43,307 nt of DNA from an uncultured Rhodospirillales bacterium (GTDB lineage: Bacteria > Pseudomonadota > Alphaproteobacteria > Acetobacterales > Acetobacteraceae), in the NCBI GenBank assembly GCA_903927465.1, contig CAIYMY010000079.1:1-43307 (forward strand), in the 5' to 3' direction. The position numbers were made by a program, and so were the translations under genes. Below, piece by piece: positions 4,021 through 32,362 of this stretch (position 1 is the first letter of the stretch; every line of letters starts with the position of its first letter). A model generated the notes under the pieces. The model did no database searches. It saw only the letters and a list, made by a program, of their open reading frames with translations, and was not told where the DNA came from.

Positions 4021-6069
4021 TCAGCCCTTCGGCACCCCGGCCAATTCAAGGCCGCGCGCATAGTTTTCGCGGTCTTCTTGCCGGGCCAGGGGGTAGGTGC
4101 GGATGAAATGTTCGATGGTGAAATGTGGTTCCAGGGCAAGCAGTTTTTGGACATAGGGTGCGGCTTCATCCCGCCGGCCGAGATGGCCTAGCGCAGCGAG
4201 GAGGTGCTTATACCCGTTGGAGAAGTTGGGGCATGCCCGTACAGCACGCTTACCGTAGCGATAGGCGGCTTCGTAATTGCCTTTAAGGACGTGGGTGGTT
4301 GTGTAAATTGTATCGCCGAAATAAGCGTTTGGATCAAAGCTTGATAGCGCAGTATAGCGTTCCAGATGCTGCAGCGCTGAGTCAGAATCTCCCACATAAT
4401 TGCAGGTCGCAGCACTCATCGCCCAGGCGAAAGTGATGTTTGGATTAAGCCGCAGTGCAGTACGGAAATAGTGTTGGGCTAATTCAAAATCCTTTTCGAA
4501 AAAAGCGCACATATGTCCGCAAATGGCATACGCTTCTGCGTTCTCGGGATCATTCCTGATGGCTCGGAAGGCTAATTCTTGTGCTTTTTCAAGGCTTGCT
4601 CGCGGGTCATCAGCCCATCCTTGACCGGTGTGAAACCCGTACCAAAATGCTTTCCAAGCCGCTGCTTTGGCGTTCTCGGGGTCAATTCGAAGGGCTTCAC
4701 TCAGTAACTCACCGGCCTTTTCGAAAGGGCCGCGCTGCATCGCAAAAAACAATGGTAAGGCCTGAAGTACCAAGCTGGTCGCCCCCGAGCGTCTCGGTGC
4801 AGCTTGTTGCCCCTCAATAAAGAGTATCACAGGATCAATGCGCGCAACCACCGGTGCCACCACACGATCATGGAGCTGATCCATCATATCGGTCGCAAGT
4901 TCGAAACGATCACTCCAGACCGGCCGGATATCCTGACCAATATCCAGAAGGCGGATACTGATACTGACCTTATCAGCACCGCTAATCAGATTGCCCTCAA
5001 CCGCATAATGCCAGCCTTTACTGCGAAGGAAGACTTCATCCCATTGCCCAATTTGAGCCTGAGGTGTCAGCGCGGCCACCACATCAAACCAGCGAAAACG
5101 CGCAAGGGCTGAGGCGATTTCCTGGCTCAGAGAAAAAGCCAATTGCGCATTCTGATCATTGGTCGTCTGAAAGGGGATGACCCCTATGCGCAACCGGGAT
5201 GCGATTTGCGCAGACGCGGCAGTGCTGGGGTGAGATTCGGTATGGTTTGGGGAAGCTTGGCCTGGTTCAATTCTCTGCCGCGCAGTCGCCAACCGAAGCC
5301 TGTCATAAAGCGCCCTGGATTCGGCTGAAGGCTCCACCTCCAACCTGCTGCGCATGGCCATGCGGCAGCGTTCGAATTCGCGCAGCGCCTGGGCTTTTTC
5401 ACCAAGATCAGCCAGCGCCGTCATCAGGATCCGGCTGGCCCCTTCATGTGTTGGGTCGCAGGCAATAATGCGGCGCGCAAGGCCAGCACGTCTTTCGGCA
5501 GGAATATCTGCCTTCGCGATCTGGTGCAGTTCTTCGTCAAAAACCCCAGTGATTTCAGTCGCGAAGCGTGCACGTTCCATCAGTAGCCATTCGTCAAAGG
5601 CTTCCGATATCCCGTTCAGGTCCTCCAACAATTCCCCTTCGCAAAGGGCAGCCAAATCGGTCCTGAGCAGATTGGCAGGGTGCGGGCCGGCCAGAATGGC
5701 GGCGCTATCAACCCAGCAGGCACGTTGGTTGAGCCGCACCATCTCGGCATCGGTTTCAAGAATTTCATTCGCGAGCGGCCCGAAGGCCAGCAATAGCTCC
5801 CGCAGGGATTGCCTGAGGCTGGCGCGGGCTTGATGGTCGGGTACCCTGTCCCAGAGCAGAGAGGCTATTTTGGCCCTTGGCACCCGCTGCCCGGCATGCA
5901 GGCAAAGATAACCCAGAATGGCGCGCGCCTTGCGGCCCCGGGGCACCAAATCCTCGCCGAGGTAGCTAATGGCACGCAGCGCGCCGAGAAGATGGATGCG
6001 AACAGCAGCCTGCCGGGCGCCGACATCCAGCGCCACAAGCTTGTTCTGATTGGCATGTTGTCGCGCCAA
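4021..6069 (-). CDS. BTAD/SARP-type transcriptional regulator with TolB-like and TPR regions
   Basis: This is a large cytoplasmic regulator of 682 residues. About residues 20-110 form an OmpR-like winged helix (RGRKARAILGYLCLHAGQ, then an LLWDR...ASLRQSLREL block). Residues 115-260 match the bacterial transcriptional activator domain (EGELLEDLNG...EWLLMERAR, ALREFERCR, EPSAESRALYDRL). Residues 290-420 resemble the TolB-like domain seen in such regulators (IGVIPF, ALARFRWFDV, YAVEGNL). The rest is tetratricopeptide-like (ALRIDPENAKAAAWKAFW, AIRNDPENAEAYAICGH, ALRLNPNITFAWAMSA). These proteins activate neighbouring genes, and here the repeat-peptide gene diverges from it. The start is a TTG with GGTGAGG just upstream; an in-frame GTG at 6033 is possible. 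Base composition looks lower in GC than the flanks. The ligand is unknown. Confidence 0.9.
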   Translation of the reverse strand: MARQHANQNKLVALDVGARQAAVRIHLLGALRAISYLGEDLVPRGRKARAILGYLCLHAGQRVPRAKIASLLWDRVPDHQARASLRQSLRELLLAFGPLANEILETDAEMVRLNQRACWVDSAAILAGPHPANLLRTDLAALCEGELLEDLNGISEAFDEWLLMERARFATEITGVFDEELHQIAKADIPAERRAGLARRIIACDPTHEGASRILMTALADLGEKAQALREFERCRMAMRSRLEVEPSAESRALYDRLRLATARQRIEPGQASPNHTESHPSTAASAQIASRLRIGVIPFQTTNDQNAQLAFSLSQEIASALARFRWFDVVAALTPQAQIGQWDEVFLRSKGWHYAVEGNLISGADKVSISIRLLDIGQDIRPVWSDRFELATDMMDQLHDRVVAPVVARIDPVILFIEGQQAAPRRSGATSLVLQALPLFFAMQRGPFEKAGELLSEALRIDPENAKAAAWKAFWYGFHTGQGWADDPRASLEKAQELAFRAIRNDPENAEAYAICGHMCAFFEKDFELAQHYFRTALRLNPNITFAWAMSAATCNYVGDSDSALQHLERYTALSSFDPNAYFGDTIYTTTHVLKGNYEAAYRYGKRAVRACPNFSNGYKHLLAALGHLGRRDEAAPYVQKLLALEPHFTIEHFIRTYPLARQEDRENYARGLELAGVPKG

Positions 6070-6148
6070 TGCCTCACCCCCAAAAAAGGTCCCTTAGGAC
6101 GTCACATTGGGAAGGCTATTACCTATGGTTGTATAGGGCAAGCGTTAT

Positions 6149-6208
6149 TTCACGCCCATCAAGCGTTTTTTTAACGTTGCCATGATGTTCACTTCACGGC
6201 TCTTTCAC
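6149..6208 (+). promoter_or_regulatory. Cluster of TTCAC repeats in the divergent intergenic region (candidate regulator sites)
   Basis: TTCAC occurs at 6149, 6188, 6193 and 6204 between the regulator and the repeat-peptide gene. The last two lie 11 bp apart, one helical turn, as expected for the direct repeats bound by SARP-type winged helices. The motif is short and the AT-rich context could produce it by chance. Linking it to the adjacent regulator is inference. Confidence 0.3.
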
Positions 6209-6226
6209 GCCGGGCCGTCAATCTGC

Positions 6227-6276
6227 AAAAAACCACCGCAAACCGGCGGCTCCACCTCAACCTCTGGTGGTTTTTT
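6227..6276 (+). promoter_or_regulatory. Terminator-like inverted repeat in the leader of the repeat-peptide gene (candidate attenuator)
   Basis: AAAAAACCACC at 6227-6237 is perfectly complementary to GGTGGTTTTTT at 6266-6276, with a 28-nt loop. The right arm ends in six Ts, so the RNA would be a GC stem plus U-run, as in intrinsic terminators. It lies 31 bp before the ATG at 6308, so a promoter driving that gene almost certainly transcribes through it. The repeat is symmetric and would look alike on the minus strand. The long loop makes it weaker than a textbook terminator. Confidence 0.55.
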
Positions 6277-6307
6277 GGTCGAGCCCCCAAACGCAGGAGA
6301 TGTTAAA

Positions 6308-6727
6308 ATGAGTGACATGAACATTCAACAGCTTCCCTCCATGAAGCCGGTCTCCCTGGGTGGGGCCGCCATCAACGATACTGGCAAGGTTCGCTTCGGT
6401 GCTCTTGCGCCAAGCCTGCCGCCGGTGCGCATCTCCGATAACGCAGCAACCGATACTGGCAAGGTTCGCTTCGGTGCTCTTGCGCCAAGCCTGCCGCCGG
6501 TGCGCATCTCCGATAACGCAGCAACCGATGCCGGCAAGGTTCGCGTTGGCGGCCATGCCCCAGCCCTGCCTGCGGTGCACATCTCCGCTGAAGCCGTCGC
6601 CGATGCCGGCAAGGTTCGCTTTGGCGGCCATGCCCCGAGCCTACCGCAGGTGCGCATCGCCGCTGAAGCCGTCGCCGATGCCGGCAAGGTTCGCTTTGGC
6701 GGCCATGCCCCGAGCATGCCGCGCTGA
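6308..6727 (+). CDS. Small protein made of 25-residue tandem repeats (candidate multi-core precursor peptide)
   Basis: I do not recognise this 139-residue protein. A 23-residue N-terminal segment beginning MSDMNIQQLPSMKPVSLGG is followed by five repeat units, each 25 residues except a final one of 16. The unit pattern is D-[A/T]-G-K-V-R-[F/V]-G-[A/G]-[L/H]-A-P-[S/A]-[L/M]-P-x-V-[R/H]-I, then a variable Ser/Ala/Asn/Glu linker. There is no cysteine, tryptophan or tyrosine and no obvious signal peptide. The N-terminus itself resembles a decayed half-repeat. I chose the ATG at 6308 because AGGAG lies 8 nt upstream; an in-frame ATG at 6182 would run through the attenuator-like hairpin. The next gene is a DUF6065-like protein, and a BTAD regulator diverges upstream. 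A short leader plus repeated units is how multi-core RiPP precursors look, but a structural or binding repeat protein is also possible. Confidence 0.82.
   Translation: MSDMNIQQLPSMKPVSLGGAAINDTGKVRFGALAPSLPPVRISDNAATDTGKVRFGALAPSLPPVRISDNAATDAGKVRVGGHAPALPAVHISAEAVADAGKVRFGGHAPSLPQVRIAAEAVADAGKVRFGGHAPSMPR
6377..6724 (+). repeat. 75-bp coding tandem repeat, five units (last one partial)
   Basis: The units are 6377-6451, 6452-6526, 6527-6601, 6602-6676 and 6677-6724 (48 bp). Units 1 and 2 are identical over all 75 bp. Units 4 and 5 share their first 39 bp exactly. Units 3-5 start GATGCCGGCAAGGTTCGC and units 1-2 start GATACTGGCAAGGTTCGC. The DNA-level identity points to recent duplication or gene conversion, and the copy number probably varies between strains. 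Confidence 0.95.
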
Positions 6728-6770
6728 ACCAAGCGCAACTCCTGGTCAGGGCTCAGGTCCGGATAGCGGT

Positions 6771-6806
6771 TTGGGGGGATTTGGTGAAGACTTCGTCTTT
6801 CCCCAA
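6771..6806 (+). promoter_or_regulatory. Intercistronic hairpin between the repeat-peptide and DUF6065-like genes
   Basis: In the 105-bp gap, AAGAC/GTCTT (6787-6791 / 6795-6799) closes a TTC loop, and TTGGGG/CCCCAA (6771-6776 / 6801-6806) can form an outer stem across an asymmetric bulge. There is no T-run. It could act in RNA processing or partial termination, lowering expression of the second gene relative to the repeat peptide. Confidence 0.35.
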
Positions 6807-6832
6807 CTCCCCACCGCAAAACAGGTGTTGAC

Positions 6833-7615
6833 GTGACTGAAAATCGCAAACCCGAAGCACCGCTCGCAACATTCTATCGCATGATTCCCTCGGCGCGCCC
6901 ACCACAGCGCGCCGATAGATCTGCTGCGGGCAGCATGCCAACCAGGGCCTTTCGGTTTTGTGAGGCGATGACAACCGCTTCCTCCTTCGGGTGGTATATT
7001 TTTCCGCCCATAGGCTTCAAGTTGATGTGGGATGGTTCGGATGTGATCTGGACCTATGATGGTGTGGAGGATTGGTACCCCCTCACCACCGCGCAGTTTC
7101 CGAATTTCGCGCCTCATTTCGATGATGCCGCGCCGGAAGATATCAAGGGCTACTCGCCCCCCTTCCTCAGCACCTTCATCGAACCAGGCCTGGTGCAGAT
7201 CTGGAGCGGCCTTGCAATGCGCACCGCCCCAGGCTGGGCCGCGCTGATCCGCGCGCCGGCCAATTTTGTGCGCAACCGCGGCTATGAATGCTATGAAGGT
7301 ATTGTCGAAACCAGCAACTGGTTCGGCCCGCTTTTCATCAATGTGCGCTTGACGCGCACGCATCACCCGATCGAATTCGATCCGAATTTTCCCTTTCTGC
7401 AAGTGCAGCCCCTCCCGCGGGAGGCCTATGGCGCGGCGGCCGAGAATTTTTCGATCATTGAGGATTTATCGGGCTTTGGCGAAGCCGAATGGAATGATTT
7501 TCGCCACACCATTGTACGCCCAAACAAGGACCCGCACCGCAAGCTTGGCGATTATGCCGTGGGTATTCGTAAAACTCAGCGCGCGAAGGACCGTGATGAC
7601 CCGGCCAAGGAATAA
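6833..7615 (+). CDS. DUF6065-like protein of unknown function
   Basis: This 260-residue soluble protein resembles my recollection of the DUF6065 family, which has no established function. Recognisable blocks are an N-terminal FYRMIPSARPP, then TRAFRFCEAM, ASSFGWYIFPPIGFKLMWDG, SPPFLSTFIEPGLVQIWSG, APGWAALIRAPANF, and YEGIVETSNWFGPLFINVRL near residue 160. The family's usual length (about 250-265) fits. The start is a GTG at 6833; an in-frame ATG at 6881 would drop the conserved FYRMIP block, so the GTG is preferred. It lies 105 bp after the repeat-peptide gene on the same strand and is probably cotranscribed. Many aromatic, proline and histidine residues are conserved-looking, but I see no known catalytic motif, so enzyme activity is speculation. 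Confidence 0.82.
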   Translation: MTENRKPEAPLATFYRMIPSARPPQRADRSAAGSMPTRAFRFCEAMTTASSFGWYIFPPIGFKLMWDGSDVIWTYDGVEDWYPLTTAQFPNFAPHFDDAAPEDIKGYSPPFLSTFIEPGLVQIWSGLAMRTAPGWAALIRAPANFVRNRGYECYEGIVETSNWFGPLFINVRLTRTHHPIEFDPNFPFLQVQPLPREAYGAAAENFSIIEDLSGFGEAEWNDFRHTIVRPNKDPHRKLGDYAVGIRKTQRAKDRDDPAKE

Positions 7616-7793
7616 TTGAGCGCTACGGGTCTCTCATCATCTCGATTTCCGGCAAAAAACAGACCCACTGCATGAAGTTTGCTGATTACTGATCGGAAAA
7701 AACCCTTTTCATAACTCACAAATTCGCAAGAATGATATTGTTTTTTGCTTTAGCTTGCGTAAACTATAGTGAGCCTGAATAGAGGAAGCCCCG
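7616..7793 (+). promoter_or_regulatory. AT-rich intergenic region with a possible -10 element
   Basis: This 178-bp stretch is clearly richer in A and T than its surroundings. TATAGT at 7765-7770, 24 bp before the ATG at 7794, could be a -10 element, but I see no convincing -35 at normal spacing. No open reading frame stands out in it. Confidence 0.25.
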
Positions 7794-8018
7794 ATGCCCC
7801 GCGATGGTGATGATCTTCTTGGAAACAAACTCATTACGCCGACGCTTGAATTAGCCGTACTAGGGCTATGGGCTGCAGCAATGGATGTGGAACGCCGTTT
7901 CAGCCGCCAGGAAATCGAAGCCTTGCCCGAATTGTCGCGCGCCATAGCCGCAGCAAATCTGCTGCCCGCCGCGATCGGCTGGGACGATGTCCTATCGGAT
8001 CAAGTTACCAAAGCTTGA
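7794..8018 (+). CDS. Small hypothetical protein (74 residues)
   Basis: I do not recognise this gene. It encodes 74 residues beginning MPRDGDDLLGNKLITP, with a probable amphipathic helix (LELAVLGLWAAAMDVERRF) and an acidic/alanine-rich second half. An AGAGGA lies 9 nt before the ATG, which supports translation. It is convergent with the XRE regulator gene and only 4 bp separate the two stops. It has no signal peptide and no clear membrane segment. A product functionally linked to the regulator is possible but unproven. Confidence 0.55.
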   Translation: MPRDGDDLLGNKLITPTLELAVLGLWAAAMDVERRFSRQEIEALPELSRAIAAANLLPAAIGWDDVLSDQVTKA

Positions 8019-8022
8019 TTTT

Positions 8023-8475
8023 TCAAACATCGCTCGTTTCTGACTGCTGTGACAGGCTCTGCACCAGCGTCGTAATTGATCGCCTGACATCAGGATCCGT
8101 TACCTGGGAAAAAGCACGCCCGATAGTATAGGCATCGCGCGCAGCATTAAGCACGTCCCCTGTCATTAAATGTTCTGTCGCGTGTCGTTGCGAAAACCCT
8201 TCTTCATCCAGCAAAAAAGTGATGGGAATATCAAGCACCGTCGCTATCACCATTAATCTTCCGGCGCCGATACGATTCACGCCACGCTCATATTTCTGTA
8301 ATTGCTGAAAGGTGACGCCAAGTTTCTCCGCCAGTTTTTGTTGACTCATGCCGACCATGGATCGGTAAAGCCGGATGCGTTCACCAACAAACTTGTCAAC
8401 TTCGTTGGTTTCCCGGCTTGCCGATTTTCTCAATACATCAAGGGCATCCTGCTCGGTCGGCTTGATCACTGACAT
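8023..8475 (-). CDS. XRE-family helix-turn-helix transcriptional regulator
   Basis: This 150-residue DNA-binding protein has a Cro/C1-type helix-turn-helix at about residues 33-90 (RIRLYRSMVGMSQQKLAEKL, then TFQQLQKYERGVNRIGAGRL). A C-terminal helical tail contains AFSQVTDPDVRRSITTLVQSL. It is a paralogue of the regulator at 39612-40088: both share TFQQ[L/V]QKYERGVNRIGA and the ITDP/VTDP tail. This class is common in alphaproteobacteria, usually with unknown targets. It lies between the repeat-peptide block and the TctC gene, convergent with the 74-residue ORF. The 252 bp upstream of its start could hold its promoter. Confidence 0.9.
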   Translation of the reverse strand: MSVIKPTEQDALDVLRKSASRETNEVDKFVGERIRLYRSMVGMSQQKLAEKLGVTFQQLQKYERGVNRIGAGRLMVIATVLDIPITFLLDEEGFSQRHATEHLMTGDVLNAARDAYTIGRAFSQVTDPDVRRSITTLVQSLSQQSETSDV

Positions 8476-9696: not shown

Positions 9697-9895
9697 GTTG
9701 TCCTCCCTGTCGCCAAGCATCCTTTAACATGAACCGCACGGTAAAGCCCGAAACACGCGAATCGCGCCTGAATATCCGCCGGGGGCTATGCCGATCTTGC
9801 GCGCCACTATAGCCTTGTCCCAATGTAATTACCTGACGAAGAGGCAACCCCTCAGCCGGGGTGTCACAGGCAAGGCAAGGACAATAGGAACGCTC
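9697..9895. promoter_or_regulatory. Divergent intergenic region between the TctC and molybdenum hydroxylase genes
   Basis: These 199 bp must hold both divergent promoters. A small hairpin ACCCC/GGGGT (9847-9851 / 9858-9862, 6-nt loop) sits about 35 bp before the FAD-subunit start. I see no clear operator symmetry and no gene. Confidence 0.35.
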
Positions 9896-10765
9896 ATGAC
9901 AGATACTCGATATTTGGCGCCGCAGACGCTTGATGAAGCGGTCAGCGCCTTTGCCGCGGCCCAGGGGGCTGCACGGATTTTGGCGGGCGGGACGGATCTG
10001 CTGGTGCAGATGCGCGCCGGCGTCGCGACACCCGGTTTGATCGTGGATATCAAGAAAATCGACGAAATGAACCGCATCACGGAAAATGCCGATGGCAGTT
10101 TCACCGTGGGTGCGGCGGTATCCGCAGTCTCGCTCGCTGATCATCCGCGCTTCGGCACGGTGTGGCCGGGTGTGCTGGAAGCGGTGAACCTGATTGGGTC
10201 AAAGCAGGTGCAGGGCCGCGCCTCCCCGGGTGGGAATCTCTGCAATGGCTCGCCCGCCGGTGACAGCGTGCCGGCCATGATCGCCGCCGGTGCGGTGGTG
10301 ACGGTGCAGGGCCCGAAAGGCCGTCGGCAAATGCCGGTCGAAGCCTTCCCGGCCGGCCCGGGCAAAACGAACCTCGCCCCCGGTGAAATCCTGGTGAGCT
10401 TCACCCTGCCCGCGCGCCCCGCCGGTTCGGGTGATGCCTATCTGCGCATGATCCCGCGCACGGAAATGGATATCGCGGTTGTTGGCTGCGGCGTCAGCCT
10501 TACCATGAAGGATGGCGTTTGCACCGCCGCCCGCATTGGGCTTGGCGCCGTGGCGCCGACCGTGATGCTGTTGGAAGAAGCCGCCAAGGCGCTGATCGGC
10601 ACAAAGCTTGAACCCGCCGCTGTTGCCGCCGCCGCTGCCGCTTGCAGCGCCGCTTGCCGCCCCATCAATGACACGCGCGGCACCATTGTCTATCGTACCA
10701 AGGTTGCCGGCGTGCTCCTGAAGCGCGCCGTTGCCATCGCCGCCGAACGCGCCAGCCGGAGCTGA
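9896..10765 (+). CDS. Molybdenum hydroxylase FAD-binding subunit (CoxM-like)
   Basis: This 289-residue medium subunit of an xanthine dehydrogenase-family enzyme binds FAD and passes electrons from the 2Fe-2S subunit onward. The PCMH-type FAD motif AARILAGGTDLLVQMR is near the N-terminus. IGSKQVQGRASPGGNLCNGSPAGD around residue 100 is the second flavin-binding loop. The C-terminal third matches the CO dehydrogenase flavoprotein C-terminal domain. The start at 9896 is preferred over an upstream in-frame start because AGGA lies 6 nt before it and the domain starts right after it. The 2Fe-2S subunit gene follows after 3 bp, giving the order FAD, FeS, Mo. Confidence 0.93.
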   Translation: MTDTRYLAPQTLDEAVSAFAAAQGAARILAGGTDLLVQMRAGVATPGLIVDIKKIDEMNRITENADGSFTVGAAVSAVSLADHPRFGTVWPGVLEAVNLIGSKQVQGRASPGGNLCNGSPAGDSVPAMIAAGAVVTVQGPKGRRQMPVEAFPAGPGKTNLAPGEILVSFTLPARPAGSGDAYLRMIPRTEMDIAVVGCGVSLTMKDGVCTAARIGLGAVAPTVMLLEEAAKALIGTKLEPAAVAAAAAACSAACRPINDTRGTIVYRTKVAGVLLKRAVAIAAERASRS

Positions 10766-10768
10766 ACA

Positions 10769-11248
10769 ATGTCCAAGATGCATGTTTCGACCACCATTAA
10801 CGGGGAACCAATGGAGTTCCTGTGTGAAGCGCATGACAGCATGCTGGATGCGCTGCGCGGCCCGCTTGGCCTGACCGGCGCCAAGGAAGGCTGCGGCACC
10901 GGTGATTGCGGCGCCTGTTCCATCACCGTGGATGGCCGCCTGATTTGCGCCTGCCTGATGCTGGCGGTGGAATCCGAAGGCAAATCACTCGGCACCATCG
11001 AAGGCATGTCGCAGGGCGGTGATCTGCACCCGCTGCAACGCAAATTCCTGGAAATGGCAGCGCTGCAATGCGGCATCTGCACGCCAGGCGTTTTGATTGC
11101 CGCGAAATCCTTGCTGGAAAAAAACCCGGATCCAACCGAAACCGAAGTCCGTTTCGGCCTTGCTGGCAACCTTTGCCGCTGCACGGGTTACGACAAGATT
11201 GTTCGCGCCGTGCTTGAAACCGCCGCTGAAATGAGGGGGGCTGCCTGA
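10769..11248 (+). CDS. Molybdenum hydroxylase [2Fe-2S] subunit (CoxS-like)
   Basis: This 159-residue small subunit carries two [2Fe-2S] clusters. The plant-ferredoxin-like N-terminal domain has CGTGDCGAC and a downstream cysteine in ICACL. The C-terminal helical domain has CGICTPG and NLCRCTGY. All expected cluster cysteines are present. It relays electrons between the molybdenum centre and FAD in the cytoplasmic hydroxylase. It lies 3 bp after the FAD subunit and overlaps the large-subunit start by one base, so the three genes are translationally linked. Confidence 0.96.
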   Translation: MSKMHVSTTINGEPMEFLCEAHDSMLDALRGPLGLTGAKEGCGTGDCGACSITVDGRLICACLMLAVESEGKSLGTIEGMSQGGDLHPLQRKFLEMAALQCGICTPGVLIAAKSLLEKNPDPTETEVRFGLAGNLCRCTGYDKIVRAVLETAAEMRGAA

Positions 11249-13488
11249 TGAACGATATGTCCAACAAATGGATCGGCAAAAGCACGATCCGTCCCGATGG
11301 TGCGGAAAAGGTGACGGGCCGCGCTGCCTATGCCGCCGATACCAATATGCCCGGCATGATCTGGGGCAAGGTGCTGCGCAGCCCGCATCCGCATGCGCGC
11401 ATCATTTCCATCAATACCGCCAAGGCGGAAGCGCATCCCGGCGTGAAGGCCGTGGTGACGCACAAGGATTTGGTGGATTTCCCGCTCGACAAATCCGTGA
11501 TGCTCGGCATCCAGGATATGCGCTGGATGTGCCGCAACATCATGGCGCGCGAAAAGGTGCTGTTCCATGGCCACCCGATTGCCGCCATTGCCGCGATTTC
11601 GGAAAAAGTGGCGGCCGAGGCGCTGCAACTGATCGAAGTGGAATATGAGGTTCTGCCTTGGGTGATTGACGCGGAAGACGCGATCAAGCCCGATGCGCCG
11701 ATCCTGCATGATTTCATCAAGTTCGACGGCAAGGCTTCCAATATCGCGGGCAAGCTGGAACACAAGCTTGGTGATATTGAAAAGGGTTTCGCTGAAGCCG
11801 ACGTCGTTATCGAACGCCGCTTCCGCACCGCGCCCGTGCATCAGGGTTATATCGAAACCCATGCCTGCCTGGTGAGTGTGGCCGATGGCAAGGCAACGGT
11901 GTGGAGTTCAAGCCAGGGCCAATTCATGGTCCGCGCGATGTGTTCTTACCTCACTGGCCTGCCACAAAGCGATATCCGCGCCATTCCGGCGGAAATCGGC
12001 GGTGGCTTTGGCGGCAAGACGATTGTCTATCTGGAACCGGTGGCGCTGCTGCTGGCCAAGAAATCTGGCCGCCCGGTGAAGATGGTGATGACGCGCGAAG
12101 AAGTGATGCGCGCCACGGGCCCAACCTCGGGTTCGTTCAGCACCATCAAGATCGGTGCGAAGAAGGATGGCACCCTGGTCGCCGCGCAGGGCACTTTCTA
12201 CCTGCAAGCTGGCGCGCTGCCCGGTTCGCCCATTCGTGGTGCGGCGGGCTGCGCTTTCGCGCCCTACAATATCGCGAATGTGCATTCGCAGGGCTTTGAT
12301 GTGGTGTCCAACCGGTCCAAGGTTGCGGCCTATCGCGCGCCAGGGGCGCCGATTGGTGCTTATGGCGTGGAATGTGTGCTGGATGAAGTGGCCGAAAAGC
12401 TTGGCATGGACCCGCTGGCGCTGCGCCTGAAAAACGCCGCTGAGGAAGGCACCAAGGCCGCGCATGGCCCGGTATTTCCGCGTATTGGCCTGAAGGAAAC
12501 CATTGAAGCCGCGATGGCGCATCCGCATTACAGCGCGCCGCTTGGCCCCAATCAGGGCCGTGGGGTTGCCAGCGGCTTCTGGTTCAATGCTGGCGGTGAA
12601 TCTTCCGCGCAGGTGAACATCACGGAAGATGGCAATGTTGCAGTGACCACGGGGCACCCGGATATCGGTGGCTCGCGCGCTTCCATCGCCAATATCACTG
12701 CGGAATTGCTTGGCATTGATTACAAGCGCGTCTCAGTGCTGATCGGCGATACCGCGACCATTGGCTATTCCAACCTTACAGGCGGCAGCCGCGTGTTGTT
12801 TGCTTCCGCGATGGTGGTGACGCAATCTTCGGAGAAAGTCATCACGCAGCTCAAGGAACGCGCGGCGAAGATCTGGAAGATCGACCCCGAAGCGGTGATC
12901 TGGGACAATGGCGAAGCCCGTCCTGCGGGCGCCAATGCGGGACAATTCCCGCCGCTGAGCCTGAAGGATATCGCCGCCAAGGCCAGCGAAACGGGCGGGC
13001 CGATTGGCGCGGGCGTGCAGTTGAACACAACCGGCGCCGAAGGGGGTTTTGCGACCCATATCTGCGATGTGGAAGTGGACCCGGAACTCGGTACCGTGAA
13101 GGTGCTGCGCTACACATCCTTCCAGGATGTCGGGCGCGCGGTTCATCCGGCCTATGTTGAAGGCCAGATGCAGGGCGGTGCGGCGCAGGGCATCGGCTGG
13201 GCGCTGAACGAGGAATACATCTACAACGCCAAAGGCCAGGTGGATAATCCCGCCTTCCTTGATTACCGCATGCCGGTGTGTTCGGACCTGCCGATGCTGG
13301 ATGCGGTGATGCTGGAAATCCCGAACCCCAAGCACCCGCAAGGCGTGCGTGGCGTGGGTGAAGTGCCGCTGGTGCCGCCACTGGGTGCGATTTCCAACGC
13401 TATGTATCGCGCGACGCATAAGCGCTTCTACGCGCTGCCCATGTCACCGCCACGGGTTCTGGAAAAGCTGGATCAGGCGGCCGAATAA
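11248..13488 (+). CDS. Molybdenum hydroxylase large, molybdopterin-binding subunit
   Basis: This 746-residue catalytic subunit belongs to the xanthine dehydrogenase/aldehyde oxidase family and binds molybdenum cytosine dinucleotide-type cofactor. The start KSTIRPDGAEKVTGRAAYA is the usual entry. GGGFGGK is at 251-257, AYRAPGAP at 361-368, and the probable catalytic glutamate is Glu705 in GVGEVPLVPP. The active-site loop is neither the AYxCSFR of true CO dehydrogenases nor the AYRGAGR of form II, so CO oxidation is unlikely. The substrate is probably an N-heterocycle or aromatic/aldehyde compound that is hydroxylated with water. No cofactor maturation genes are in the window. A clear intrinsic terminator follows at 13514-13549. 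Confidence 0.92.
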   Translation: MNDMSNKWIGKSTIRPDGAEKVTGRAAYAADTNMPGMIWGKVLRSPHPHARIISINTAKAEAHPGVKAVVTHKDLVDFPLDKSVMLGIQDMRWMCRNIMAREKVLFHGHPIAAIAAISEKVAAEALQLIEVEYEVLPWVIDAEDAIKPDAPILHDFIKFDGKASNIAGKLEHKLGDIEKGFAEADVVIERRFRTAPVHQGYIETHACLVSVADGKATVWSSSQGQFMVRAMCSYLTGLPQSDIRAIPAEIGGGFGGKTIVYLEPVALLLAKKSGRPVKMVMTREEVMRATGPTSGSFSTIKIGAKKDGTLVAAQGTFYLQAGALPGSPIRGAAGCAFAPYNIANVHSQGFDVVSNRSKVAAYRAPGAPIGAYGVECVLDEVAEKLGMDPLALRLKNAAEEGTKAAHGPVFPRIGLKETIEAAMAHPHYSAPLGPNQGRGVASGFWFNAGGESSAQVNITEDGNVAVTTGHPDIGGSRASIANITAELLGIDYKRVSVLIGDTATIGYSNLTGGSRVLFASAMVVTQSSEKVITQLKERAAKIWKIDPEAVIWDNGEARPAGANAGQFPPLSLKDIAAKASETGGPIGAGVQLNTTGAEGGFATHICDVEVDPELGTVKVLRYTSFQDVGRAVHPAYVEGQMQGGAAQGIGWALNEEYIYNAKGQVDNPAFLDYRMPVCSDLPMLDAVMLEIPNPKHPQGVRGVGEVPLVPPLGAISNAMYRATHKRFYALPMSPPRVLEKLDQAAE

Positions 13489-29791: not shown

Positions 29792-32083
29792 CTATCTACA
29801 TAGTCTTAGCATATGGTCGGTGTGCTTTGGGTCGGCGGTGTGCATCATTTCTATGAGCGCTTTTGCTGCCTCATAAGACTCCTCTAAGGTCATAGAGGAA
29901 AAGCCCACTAGATCATCTAGATTATCCGAGTGTGATTCGACCTGAGTAAGCCGGTCGAGAGCCTTCATACGAACCGTCTCCAATGAATAATCACTGCAAA
30001 GTTGGTCAACCTTGCTTGCGAGGCCGGCGCTTCCTGGACATTTGAACGTCAGGAACACCTCTAATACTCGGCGAAGTAAATGAGGCATCATATAAGCATA
30101 CTCATAGTCAATCCCCTGACTCTCGAAATCTACGACGTGCTTGAAAAGAAAATGATACTCAAAATCATACTCACGCAAAAGTTTCGACATTTCAGAAAAC
30201 GTGCTTTTTCGCGTTGCACAGTTTCTTGGTAGTCCAACATTCAGGAAAAAGAACCGTGCCGTTGGTTGTTTTGATGCATCATCCGGTTTGGCACGTTGTT
30301 TCCAGTACTTCTTGAATTCATTCATACAAGGCAGATTGTGGGTCAGAATAAAAACTTGAGCCGACTGCTCTACTCTAGATTTAACGAGAGTACATGCGTA
30401 ATTCAAAGCCTTACTATCTAAACTTGAGATAGGATCGTCGATCACCAGAATAGTATCTTCCAGCTTCCGTCCATCTGATTGCAACATTGAAATGAAATAA
30501 CAGAGCGCGATCGCTGTCTTCTCACCTTCGCTAGGCGGCCCAATCAAGCGTCTTCCGTGTCGCTGAATTTCATATCCCTCGGTAGTGGGACGGATTGTGA
30601 GTTCGTGATGTCCAAGGTATGAGGCTATAAGTTTGTTTACAATCTCGGCTGCCTTGCTGTGTTCGCGAATGACGCTTTTTAGCAAAGCGATTTCCGCCTT
30701 CAGTTGGGCTATCTTCGCCCCAGACTCACTTGCGCTAACTTTCGCATCCTCAACATTTTTGACCAGACCATCATATTCCGCTCTAGCTTCTGCTACATTA
30801 TGTTTACGGATACTCAAGCGCGATTCCGATTGATATTGCGTAAACGTTGAAGCTTTTCCGTTGTGTTTTCTGATAATTTCGTTGATTCGAGCTATGGCAT
30901 CATCTAGGTTCGTAATATTGTATTGGCTGACGATGACCTGGAAGGCTTGGACGTTAATTTTTCGCGTCGGATATTCGCTTTTCTCCTGAAGAATGTCGCC
31001 AGCTCCTGTGAGCAGAGATTTGGCGGTTTCTATTTCTTCAACCAACCGGGTCTGCGCCTGTTCGTAATCAAACGAAAACTCTCCCAAAAGAAGTGAGGGG
31101 GCGGGAATACGACTTTGTAGTGCGAGCAAACTCTGAGTTATCACCACAACTTGCTCACGACAAAATCTCAAGCGTTGAAGAAATTGATCTAGATGATCAT
31201 TAAATATTTGCTCCAAGGCTTCTGTTCGCTCAGGCGTAATTGGGTTATCGCAAAAGAGGCAGGTTTCAAGCCCATTGCCCTGGTGATACTCAAACCCTTT
31301 CTTTACCCAAAGGAGCATATCGGGATGGCGCTGAAGGCCCTCAAGAACAATGGTACCGGGCGTTTCATTTGAGAGATTAATGATCTCAGCTAAAATATCT
31401 GCCTTCAGTTCGGCTTCTTCCACGAGCGCGGAAACCCGATCAATGCTTTCTCGGGCACATATAGATCTCGCGACATCCAGCGCTTCCTGCGACATTGGAG
31501 CATCGCATTCGGAGGACAGATCTGCAAAATCCTGCTCCAACTGTCCAGCCTCGTAACTACGACCAACAAATCGCCCCTGCTCAGAAACAAGTTTTGCGCG
31601 TCCTCTCTTGAATGTGCTGAGAGCTTTTTCGGCGGCCTGTTGAAGTTTTACAGCTTCCGCGCTCTCTCTAATAATTTCGGTAAGTTGATTTTCTTTGCGC
31701 GCGAGGTCTGCGGCAGCCTCAGCCTGCTCGCGGCCGATATAAAATATAGGATTAGCCGCGCTGTTGTTCCATTGTAGGTTGCGATCAACAAAGTCCGTAT
31801 TGAATACTAAAATATGCTTTTCAATACCCTTAAGGTTACCTGGGGCCTTGAGATAACTTTTGGTTTCCATTTCAAATTCGAAAGAACAATTTTCAGGCAG
31901 CATGGGATCGCTAGAGCCGCCTTGAAGACTCGCGAACAACCTCGAGAGCGTGCTCTTTCCAGAGCCATTAAAACCATAAATTAAGTTGTATTTGAGGAAC
32001 CCAAGGCTCGAATCTGCTCGTGTCCGATCGCCAAGAACCCCCACTCCACTAAGTTCAGAAATGTTTGCAATTCGTGCGCTCAT
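29792..32083 (-). CDS. RloC-like AAA/ABC ATPase with candidate anticodon-nuclease C-terminus
   Basis: This 763-residue protein looks like RloC (wobble-nucleotide-excising tRNase, AAA_13 class), a phage-defence and DNA-damage protein. Walker A GFNGSGKST is at 37-45. A coiled-coil hairpin covers about 120-480 and holds a zinc-hook-like CLFC (Cys275, Cys278), as in Rad50. The ABC signature-like PSEGEKTA is at 517-524, Walker B ILVIDD at 545-550, and the switch His582 is in LTHN. The C-terminus has R671-x3-E675 (RRVLEVFL) and His718 (VESHSD), which fits the Arg-Glu-His catalytic triad pattern of PrrC/RloC nucleases. The His is 43 residues after the Glu, so this assignment is tentative. The gene is clearly AT-richer than its neighbours and stands alone beside tRNA-Thr, which suggests horizontal acquisition. 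No restriction-modification genes adjoin it. Confidence 0.85.
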   Translation of the reverse strand: MSARIANISELSGVGVLGDRTRADSSLGFLKYNLIYGFNGSGKSTLSRLFASLQGGSSDPMLPENCSFEFEMETKSYLKAPGNLKGIEKHILVFNTDFVDRNLQWNNSAANPIFYIGREQAEAAADLARKENQLTEIIRESAEAVKLQQAAEKALSTFKRGRAKLVSEQGRFVGRSYEAGQLEQDFADLSSECDAPMSQEALDVARSICARESIDRVSALVEEAELKADILAEIINLSNETPGTIVLEGLQRHPDMLLWVKKGFEYHQGNGLETCLFCDNPITPERTEALEQIFNDHLDQFLQRLRFCREQVVVITQSLLALQSRIPAPSLLLGEFSFDYEQAQTRLVEEIETAKSLLTGAGDILQEKSEYPTRKINVQAFQVIVSQYNITNLDDAIARINEIIRKHNGKASTFTQYQSESRLSIRKHNVAEARAEYDGLVKNVEDAKVSASESGAKIAQLKAEIALLKSVIREHSKAAEIVNKLIASYLGHHELTIRPTTEGYEIQRHGRRLIGPPSEGEKTAIALCYFISMLQSDGRKLEDTILVIDDPISSLDSKALNYACTLVKSRVEQSAQVFILTHNLPCMNEFKKYWKQRAKPDDASKQPTARFFFLNVGLPRNCATRKSTFSEMSKLLREYDFEYHFLFKHVVDFESQGIDYEYAYMMPHLLRRVLEVFLTFKCPGSAGLASKVDQLCSDYSLETVRMKALDRLTQVESHSDNLDDLVGFSSMTLEESYEAAKALIEMMHTADPKHTDHMLRLCR

Positions 32084-32287: not shown

Positions 32288-32362
<75 letters not shown>

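Follow-up and report, generated by a model that had tools for sequence, protein, structure and literature searches.

The window described here is the 43,307-nucleotide stretch of contig CAIYMY010000079.1 (assembly GCA_903927465.1) from an uncultured bacterium of the Rhodospirillales, placed in the Acetobacteraceae. Near its start, a small repeat-peptide gene and a gene for a DUF6065-like protein follow one another on the plus strand and face a regulator gene. In relatives of Roseomonas, the first two look like an undescribed peptide-making or peptide-binding cassette. The locus comprises the following features.

4021..6069, minus strand: SARP/BTAD-type regulator gene with a TPR C-terminal part (Pfam BTAD and TPR), divergent from the peptide gene
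6308..6727, plus strand: repeat-peptide gene, putative multicore precursor, 139 residues (ATG at 6308, stop codon ending at 6727)
6308..6376, plus strand: 23-residue N-terminus of the repeat peptide (residues 1-23)
6377..6451, plus strand: repeat unit 1 (residues 24-48)
6452..6526, plus strand: repeat unit 2 (residues 49-73)
6527..6601, plus strand: repeat unit 3 (residues 74-98)
6602..6676, plus strand: repeat unit 4 (residues 99-123)
6677..6724, plus strand: repeat unit 5, truncated to 16 residues (residues 124-139)
6766..6817, plus strand: predicted stem-loop between the peptide and DUF6065 genes, a possible attenuator (from folding of the intergenic stretch)
6833..7615, plus strand: DUF6065-like protein gene, 260 residues (GTG start; PF19541; predicted dUTPase-like, beta-clip fold)

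The preliminary description of this DNA had named a 139-residue protein consisting mostly of five 25-residue units, and this was borne out, with a 23-residue start, four full units and a fifth of 16 residues. The peptide start codon is preceded at 8 nt by GGAG, and 105 bases separate the gene from the DUF6065 gene. Tandem Repeats Finder gave the array a period of 75, 4.6 copies, 87% matches and a score of 386, the highest in the window (runner-up 66). No Pfam or NCBIfam model matched the peptide above its cut-off. The DUF6065-like gene, correctly placed next on the same strand, encodes a divergent member of PF19541 that passes the curated threshold (E 7.5e-15; 55.5 bits, cut-off 26.6). For the regulator, BTAD (E 2.5e-13, above cut-off) and several TPR families were recovered from Pfam as described; the winged helix (Trans_reg_C) stayed under its 26.2-bit cut-off (E 0.012, 16.1 bits), and the middle part is presumably TolB-like. 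No sigma-70-like promoter was found in 5900-7900, and at the Rfam gathering threshold a tRNA was the sole match in the window.

Co-occurrence of peptide and partner was assessed by protein searches for DUF6065-like matches in 146 genomes, namely the window's own and relatives. Matches at E <= 0.001 were obtained in 53, of which 50 were strong (E below 1e-50); the three genomes with weak matches (G065, G120, G122) were entered as negatives. A profile of two repeat units, searched against the same genomes at E 0.01, matched 51. The repeat was present in 48 of the 50 genomes with strong DUF6065 matches versus 3 of the 96 others (Fisher p 2e-32, uncorrected for relatedness). Two genomes thus had DUF6065 only (G036, G037), three had the repeat only (G049 at E 1.2e-4; G071 and G072 near E 0.01) and 93 had neither. 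In G037, the gene upstream of DUF6065 holds three variant units such as DSGRVSTGGLQRAI. Four genomes containing two peptide-DUF6065 units each (G001, G011, G030, G032) had a repeat match by each DUF6065 gene, on the same contig and strand and within about 0.5 kb upstream. For the DUF6065 gene of G036, and for the second such gene in each of G007 and G044, the adjoining stretch examined showed no peptide.

Position was tested at named loci, the best 80 of 248 relatives found with two short patterns in a one-genome-per-species collection (84,980 species). Most are from Acetobacteraceae or labelled as their relatives, and the 78 having at least 200 bases upstream were used. A motif-independent test for in-frame tandem repeats (period 36-120, a multiple of three, within 700 bases upstream) was positive upstream of DUF6065 in 52 of 78 loci versus 0 of 187 control windows (0/80 downstream, 0/43 at 3.0-3.7 kb upstream, 0/64 at 3.0-3.7 kb downstream). 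The core pattern, which was defined after inspecting the sequences, was found upstream in 62 of 78 (at least two copies in 50) versus 1 of 187 controls (0/80, 0/43 and 1/64, respectively). Either or both tests were passed by 66 of the 78 loci, the lists being compared by hand, and three further loci show diverged units by eye (L070, L115, L123). No unit was seen upstream in L064, L065, L074 (214 bases only), L092, L098, L110, L111, L126 and L130. Because several contigs break off within the array or close to it, copy numbers may be off and some linkages missed. The contig ends inside or shortly before the repeat gene in L009, L011, L013, L055, L058-L060 and L062, presumably because repeats break assembly. 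The organism names of several metagenome-assembled genome records (e.g. those labelled Asaia bogorensis) look unreliable.

At typical PF19541 loci, an in-frame repeat lay upstream in just 1 of 16 (36-base unit, 2.1 copies). The peptide is paired with one DUF6065 subfamily and not with the family at large. The dedicated neighbour proposed earlier is strongly supported by both the genome counts and the counts in upstream stretches, and repeat peptide and DUF6065 are almost certainly dedicated functional partners. The accompanying test, whether DUF6065 genes have repeats upstream, comes out in favour for the window's subfamily; the opposite outcome, DUF6065 widespread with no repeat partner, describes the typical family and fails for the subfamily.

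The pair was also found in distant lineages. Of 289 genomes sampled across the class, 28 gave a match to the subfamily profile. Five of these were strong, the window's own genome among them, and all four of the other strong genomes carry the peptide. Of the 24 weak class-wide places, 17 were inspected, and these gave no repeat peptide, just single pattern matches in long overlapping frames. On two Rhizobium plasmids, DUF6065 (44-45% identity) is preceded by a gene of hypothetical annotation that has three units (DDGKVHIANKSPAF) of the form DxGxVHIANKSPxF. On one of these plasmids, the DUF6065 gene shares 4 nt with an overlapping major facilitator superfamily (MFS) transporter gene; on the other, two hypothetical genes stand in the place of the transporter gene. 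Rhizobium, family f41 and a Reyranella-like genome all retain the pair, although the other neighbours differ. Window-type DUF6065 genes were further found on 17 IMG/VR contigs (L183-L199). A plausible core lay upstream in 9 of the 12 examined, several being single-core, and none in L192, L193 and L199. Regarding phage origin, P0001 was unmatched in 50,697 phage records, and the query proteins P0001, P0002 and P0003 were unmatched by PADLOC defence models at E 0.01.

Across relatives, the peptides hold from 1 to about 18 cores, and array periods among the named loci range over 36-78 bases (commonest 51). The core consensus is roughly D-x-G-[KR]-[VI]-[RKH]-x-[GA]-x-x-[AS]-P-x-[LF], and a second form is D-x-G-x-V-R-x-G-A-G-x-R-x-P-K. 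Units of type A read D-A-G-K-V-R-L-G-G-x-A-P-x-L; those of type B, seen in the second peptide-DUF6065 units of the same genus, read D-K-G-T-V-R-x-G-A-G-x-R-T-P-K-A-S-V-A. Differences between successive copies within the ten-codon core fell on the third codon position in 564 of 721 cases (first 92, second 65; 7,170 bases compared), and this bias shows that the units are maintained as protein. In a fusion model of the peptide read through into DUF6065, each unit was predicted as two short strands at a predicted local distance difference test score (pLDDT) of about 62-73.

An N-terminal QQ[LVI]P[SA]M..V[ST]LG is conserved across the seven close relatives compared, and the peptide stops right behind the last core in the window and in many relatives. 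Leaders are near absent in some relatives (MTNSNIATADAG... and MTKVRIGMMAP...), and one-core peptides of about 30-40 residues exist, e.g. MKPSTAPATNDTGRIRLGAGWRLPSADPCR on IMG/VR contigs. The proposed leader plus multi-core organization is accordingly supported in part and does not extend to these near-leaderless and single-core members. The reported lack of Cys, Trp and Tyr is likewise true of the window's units, but relatives have units with Cys (GGCAPSLP, GAGCRTPK), Tyr (GGYAPSLP) or Trp (GAGWRLP), which means that excluding chemistries on this ground does not carry over to the family.

Weak database matches of the unit arrays were rejected. The Reyranella-like array (KVKLGMMAPAF, L202/L251) showed a CsrA likeness in NCBIfam (E 0.0015, 18.7 bits versus a cut-off of 70.1), and its units resemble the CsrA strand VRIGVNAP. 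Pfam CsrA did not appear among the matches of the scanned unit arrays, and no CsrA was matched in the window's genome, so the likeness was treated as a short chance match and CsrA identity was not adopted. PBSX XtrA (E 1.9e-5), CysA_C_terminal and other matches below cut-off were dropped as chance in the same way.

The AlphaFold model of the DUF6065-like protein (72 sequences) had a mean pLDDT of 86.9 and a helical C-terminus. Foldseek against the PDB returned 46 matches at E <= 0.001 (best E 8.2e-5), and all 50 matches listed were dUTPases, with template modelling scores of 0.44-0.76 by target length and 0.25-0.38 by query length and a root-mean-square deviation of 4.5-10.5. In a viral structure library, the ten top-ranked proteins were uncharacterised or unnamed (best E 2.8e-9), and most of those ranked below them were dUTPases. 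The protein is therefore predicted to have a dUTPase-like fold. This prediction rests on the model, since sequence-profile comparison with dUTPases was not significant: hhalign of the window type gave E 0.068 at 0.8 percent probability, typical DUF6065 was likewise not significant, and the dUTPase profile PF00692 was missing among Pfam matches of the protein up to E 1. A profile search of solved structures with DUF6065 gave one chance-level match (E 0.62). The DUF6065 segment GIVETSNWFGP stands in register with dUTPase GLIDSDYQGP, which places E159 at the position of the dUTPase catalytic Asp, within the non-significant profile match. Unlike dUTPases, the protein has a helical C-terminus, and no glycine-rich C-terminal motif V was seen in it.

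Typical DUF6065 (Caulobacter rings served as control genome) belongs to the same profile family as the window type (hhalign E 9.1e-18) at about 20% identity, and differs from it in the rarity of upstream repeats noted above. C43, N144, E159 and N170 are conserved in both, E159 being kept in at least 90% of window-type proteins, and are predicted to form an active-site-like set of polar residues. The phage family phrog_7084, of unknown function, connects with typical DUF6065 at E 5e-6 and with L049:1279-2055 at E 3e-49, hinting at a wider family with a dUTPase-like fold. No paper came up for 'DUF6065' or 'PF19541' in a full-text literature search of open-access PubMed Central.

The regulator often accompanies the pair as a third member of the cassette. 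Its DNA-binding part or whole was matched at 36 of the 80 named loci, and its C-terminal part only at three more. Where at least 3 kb upstream and at least 4 kb downstream were present, a linked regulator was found in 18 of 34 loci, at distances up to about 5 kb. Homologues were searched in 39 genomes. All 20 same-genus genomes with a DUF6065 unit had a match, which lay within about 3 kb on the unit's own contig in 17 and on a different contig in three (G007, G016, G018); three same-genus genomes without DUF6065 had none at E 1e-10. The regulator was adjacent in eight of 14 further genomes. The window's genome has two regulator-type matches in all, which makes chance adjacency unlikely there. 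In three f41 genomes, homologues occur elsewhere and none is linked, and no SARP regulator is annotated beside the Rhizobium pair; the regulator is therefore not obligatory. Where present, it most likely controls the cassette. It resembles SARP/AfsR-type regulators in having a BTAD and TPR architecture, with a putative winged helix, next to a putative biosynthetic locus, and differs in lying in an alphaproteobacterial branch.

Predicted open reading frames (ORFs) of at least 70 residues were clustered in 70 of the 80 named loci, and the 25 largest clusters were considered. In 12 of 80 loci, the peptide gene is immediately preceded by a same-strand tldD-type gene (PmbA/TldD metallopeptidase, C-terminal domain E 3.6e-69, Pfam), which ends 740 to 1,680 bases before the DUF6065 gene. 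In 11 genomes with one close tldD homologue each, it was at the cassette in four (G041, G085, G052, G075) and elsewhere in seven; the linkage may be one event, as all four genomes are of a single family. TldD/E is reported to remove the leader of the microcin B17 precursor (PMC5810440), and the linkage favours a peptide-processing role for the cassette. In 11 loci from one group of relatives (L066, L072, L074-L076, L079, L082, L085, L101, L113, L114), a hydrolase-like ORF, presumably of GDSL/SGNH type, starts just downstream of the DUF6065 gene. The window's locus has neither tldD nor an MFS transporter gene.

The intergenic stretch 6725-6832 folds with a z-score of -2.82. Across 10 loci, z was <= -2.4 in five (window included) and -0.7 to -1.6 in the other five, a spread with which an attenuator between precursor and partner genes is weakly consistent.

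Other features of the window were recorded. Behind the DUF6065 gene, 7794-8475 holds a 74-residue ORF without a Pfam match beside a helix-turn-helix (HTH_3) gene; in L010, the DUF6065 gene is likewise trailed by a similar pair. Three genes at 9788-13488 resemble, from their sequences, those for subunits of a molybdenum CO/xanthine dehydrogenase-type enzyme. A 763-residue AAA_13 protein (29792-32083, minus strand; Pfam E 9.3e-146) matches candidate defence family PDC-S06 (E 1.6e-153). Its gene lies in a low-GC stretch (0.457) adjoining tRNA-Thr (32288-32362), which resembles a small tRNA-linked island.

The locus is best explained as a two-gene cassette that is conserved and in many cases has a SARP-type regulator of its own. 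The peptide is best read as a multicore precursor, its dedicated partner being most likely a maturation enzyme, else a binder. In this scheme the regulator would turn the cassette on, the intergenic hairpin would keep the precursor level above that of the enzyme, DUF6065 would recognise the core and act on every copy as a maturation enzyme, and a host protease such as TldD/E would cut the peptide, giving a multicore, leader-poor product resembling the ribosomally synthesised and post-translationally modified peptides (RiPPs). A putative precursor with a conserved core beside a dedicated partner, the general RiPP logic, is what was found. Multicore RiPP precursors with dedicated modifying proteins include those of cyanobactins and microviridin-type peptides. 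Fungal Kex2-repeat RiPPs are another example. The present loci share with such systems a small gene of tandem similar cores beside a dedicated partner gene, copy numbers that shift between relatives while the core is conserved, and, in a minority, an adjoining tldD. They differ in the little or no leader of some members, the lack of a known RiPP enzyme family and of a recurrent exporter, and the predicted dUTPase-like fold of the partner.

Covalent maturation of the peptide by DUF6065 was given a probability of roughly 45%, up from about 40% once account was taken of tldD, which is linked in a minority of loci. Precursor-like changes in copy number, single-core members, the active-site-like residues shared with typical DUF6065, the adjoining tldD and the overlapping MFS gene of one Rhizobium strain were counted in its favour. 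Several observations weigh against it. Core residues vary between lineages (R to K, H, S or E; G to A; D and P lost in some), and with no chemically invariant residue there is no obvious single modification site. The fusion model showed no docking sign, and no block stood out. Comparison of precursor and partner with the known RiPP families of Pfam and NCBIfam gave nothing above curated cut-off but PF19541 for the partner, and RiPP enzymes are not known to include one with a dUTPase fold. No exporter or protease other than tldD recurred among the 25 largest neighbour clusters, just 11 of the 44 loci with 3 kb or more of upstream sequence have a linked tldD, and the tldD of the window's genome is located away from the cassette.

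DUF6065 could instead bind the cores non-covalently, for example by taking up a core as an added beta-strand, the peptide then being a multivalent scaffold, sink or inhibitor of a possibly trimeric DUF6065. This is unlikely, though a serious candidate: what the core keeps is less a single reactive residue than a strand-and-turn pattern (x-V-x-aliphatic-G/A), the fusion model predicts short regular strands in each unit, multivalency would account for long arrays, and no dedicated exporter recurs. Single-core peptides need no multivalency, however, and the active-site-like polar residues persist in distant DUF6065 relatives; the Rhizobium MFS gene overlap and the tldD linkage in 12 of 80 loci also speak against mere binding. 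A purely structural repeat protein, a beta-solenoid or filament with DUF6065 as assembly factor or cap, would suit the regular two-strand pattern of the 25-residue unit in the same model. It is quite improbable, as the units reach only the modest pLDDT given above and a solenoid would not tolerate unit periods of 36-78 nt or copy numbers down to one.

The TPR part of the regulator may sense the peptide, free or processed by DUF6065, in an intracellular loop analogous to the RRNPP systems of Firmicutes, whose TPR regulators sense peptides. Linked SARP-TPR homologues occur in 18/34 long-flank loci, 17/20 same-genus genomes and 8/14 others, and three same-genus genomes lack both DUF6065 and, at E 1e-10, such a regulator. 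The loop is nevertheless improbable: the regulator is unlinked in 16/34 loci, in the three f41 genomes and among the annotated Rhizobium neighbours, and it may merely control the cassette. That the two genes are neighbours through inheritance alone, with no shared function, is very improbable indeed. Relatedness inflates the counts, and Acetobacteraceae and labelled relatives predominate among the named loci, but the pair survives amid differing neighbours in Rhizobium, the Reyranella-like genome and f41, and genomes with two units have a peptide by each.

Returning to maturation by DUF6065, a wider version of it is tentative and rather doubtful: a dUTPase-fold family would have been recruited as a tailoring enzyme acting on every copy of a leader-poor core, forming a new ribosomal peptide class, SARP-controlled in Alphaproteobacteria and coupled to TldD in some lineages. 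In a sharper form of this idea, the Gly/Arg-containing core would stand in, in trans, for the motif V arm that dUTPases have and DUF6065 lacks, and would close the active site of DUF6065. The pairing gives part of an uncharacterised protein family a function-bearing context, alongside a peptide family that matches no Pfam or NCBIfam model above cut-off. If DUF6065 modifies the cores, a nucleotide-hydrolase fold would join the RiPP enzymes; if it just binds them, the cassette would be a natural array of short motifs together with its receptor.

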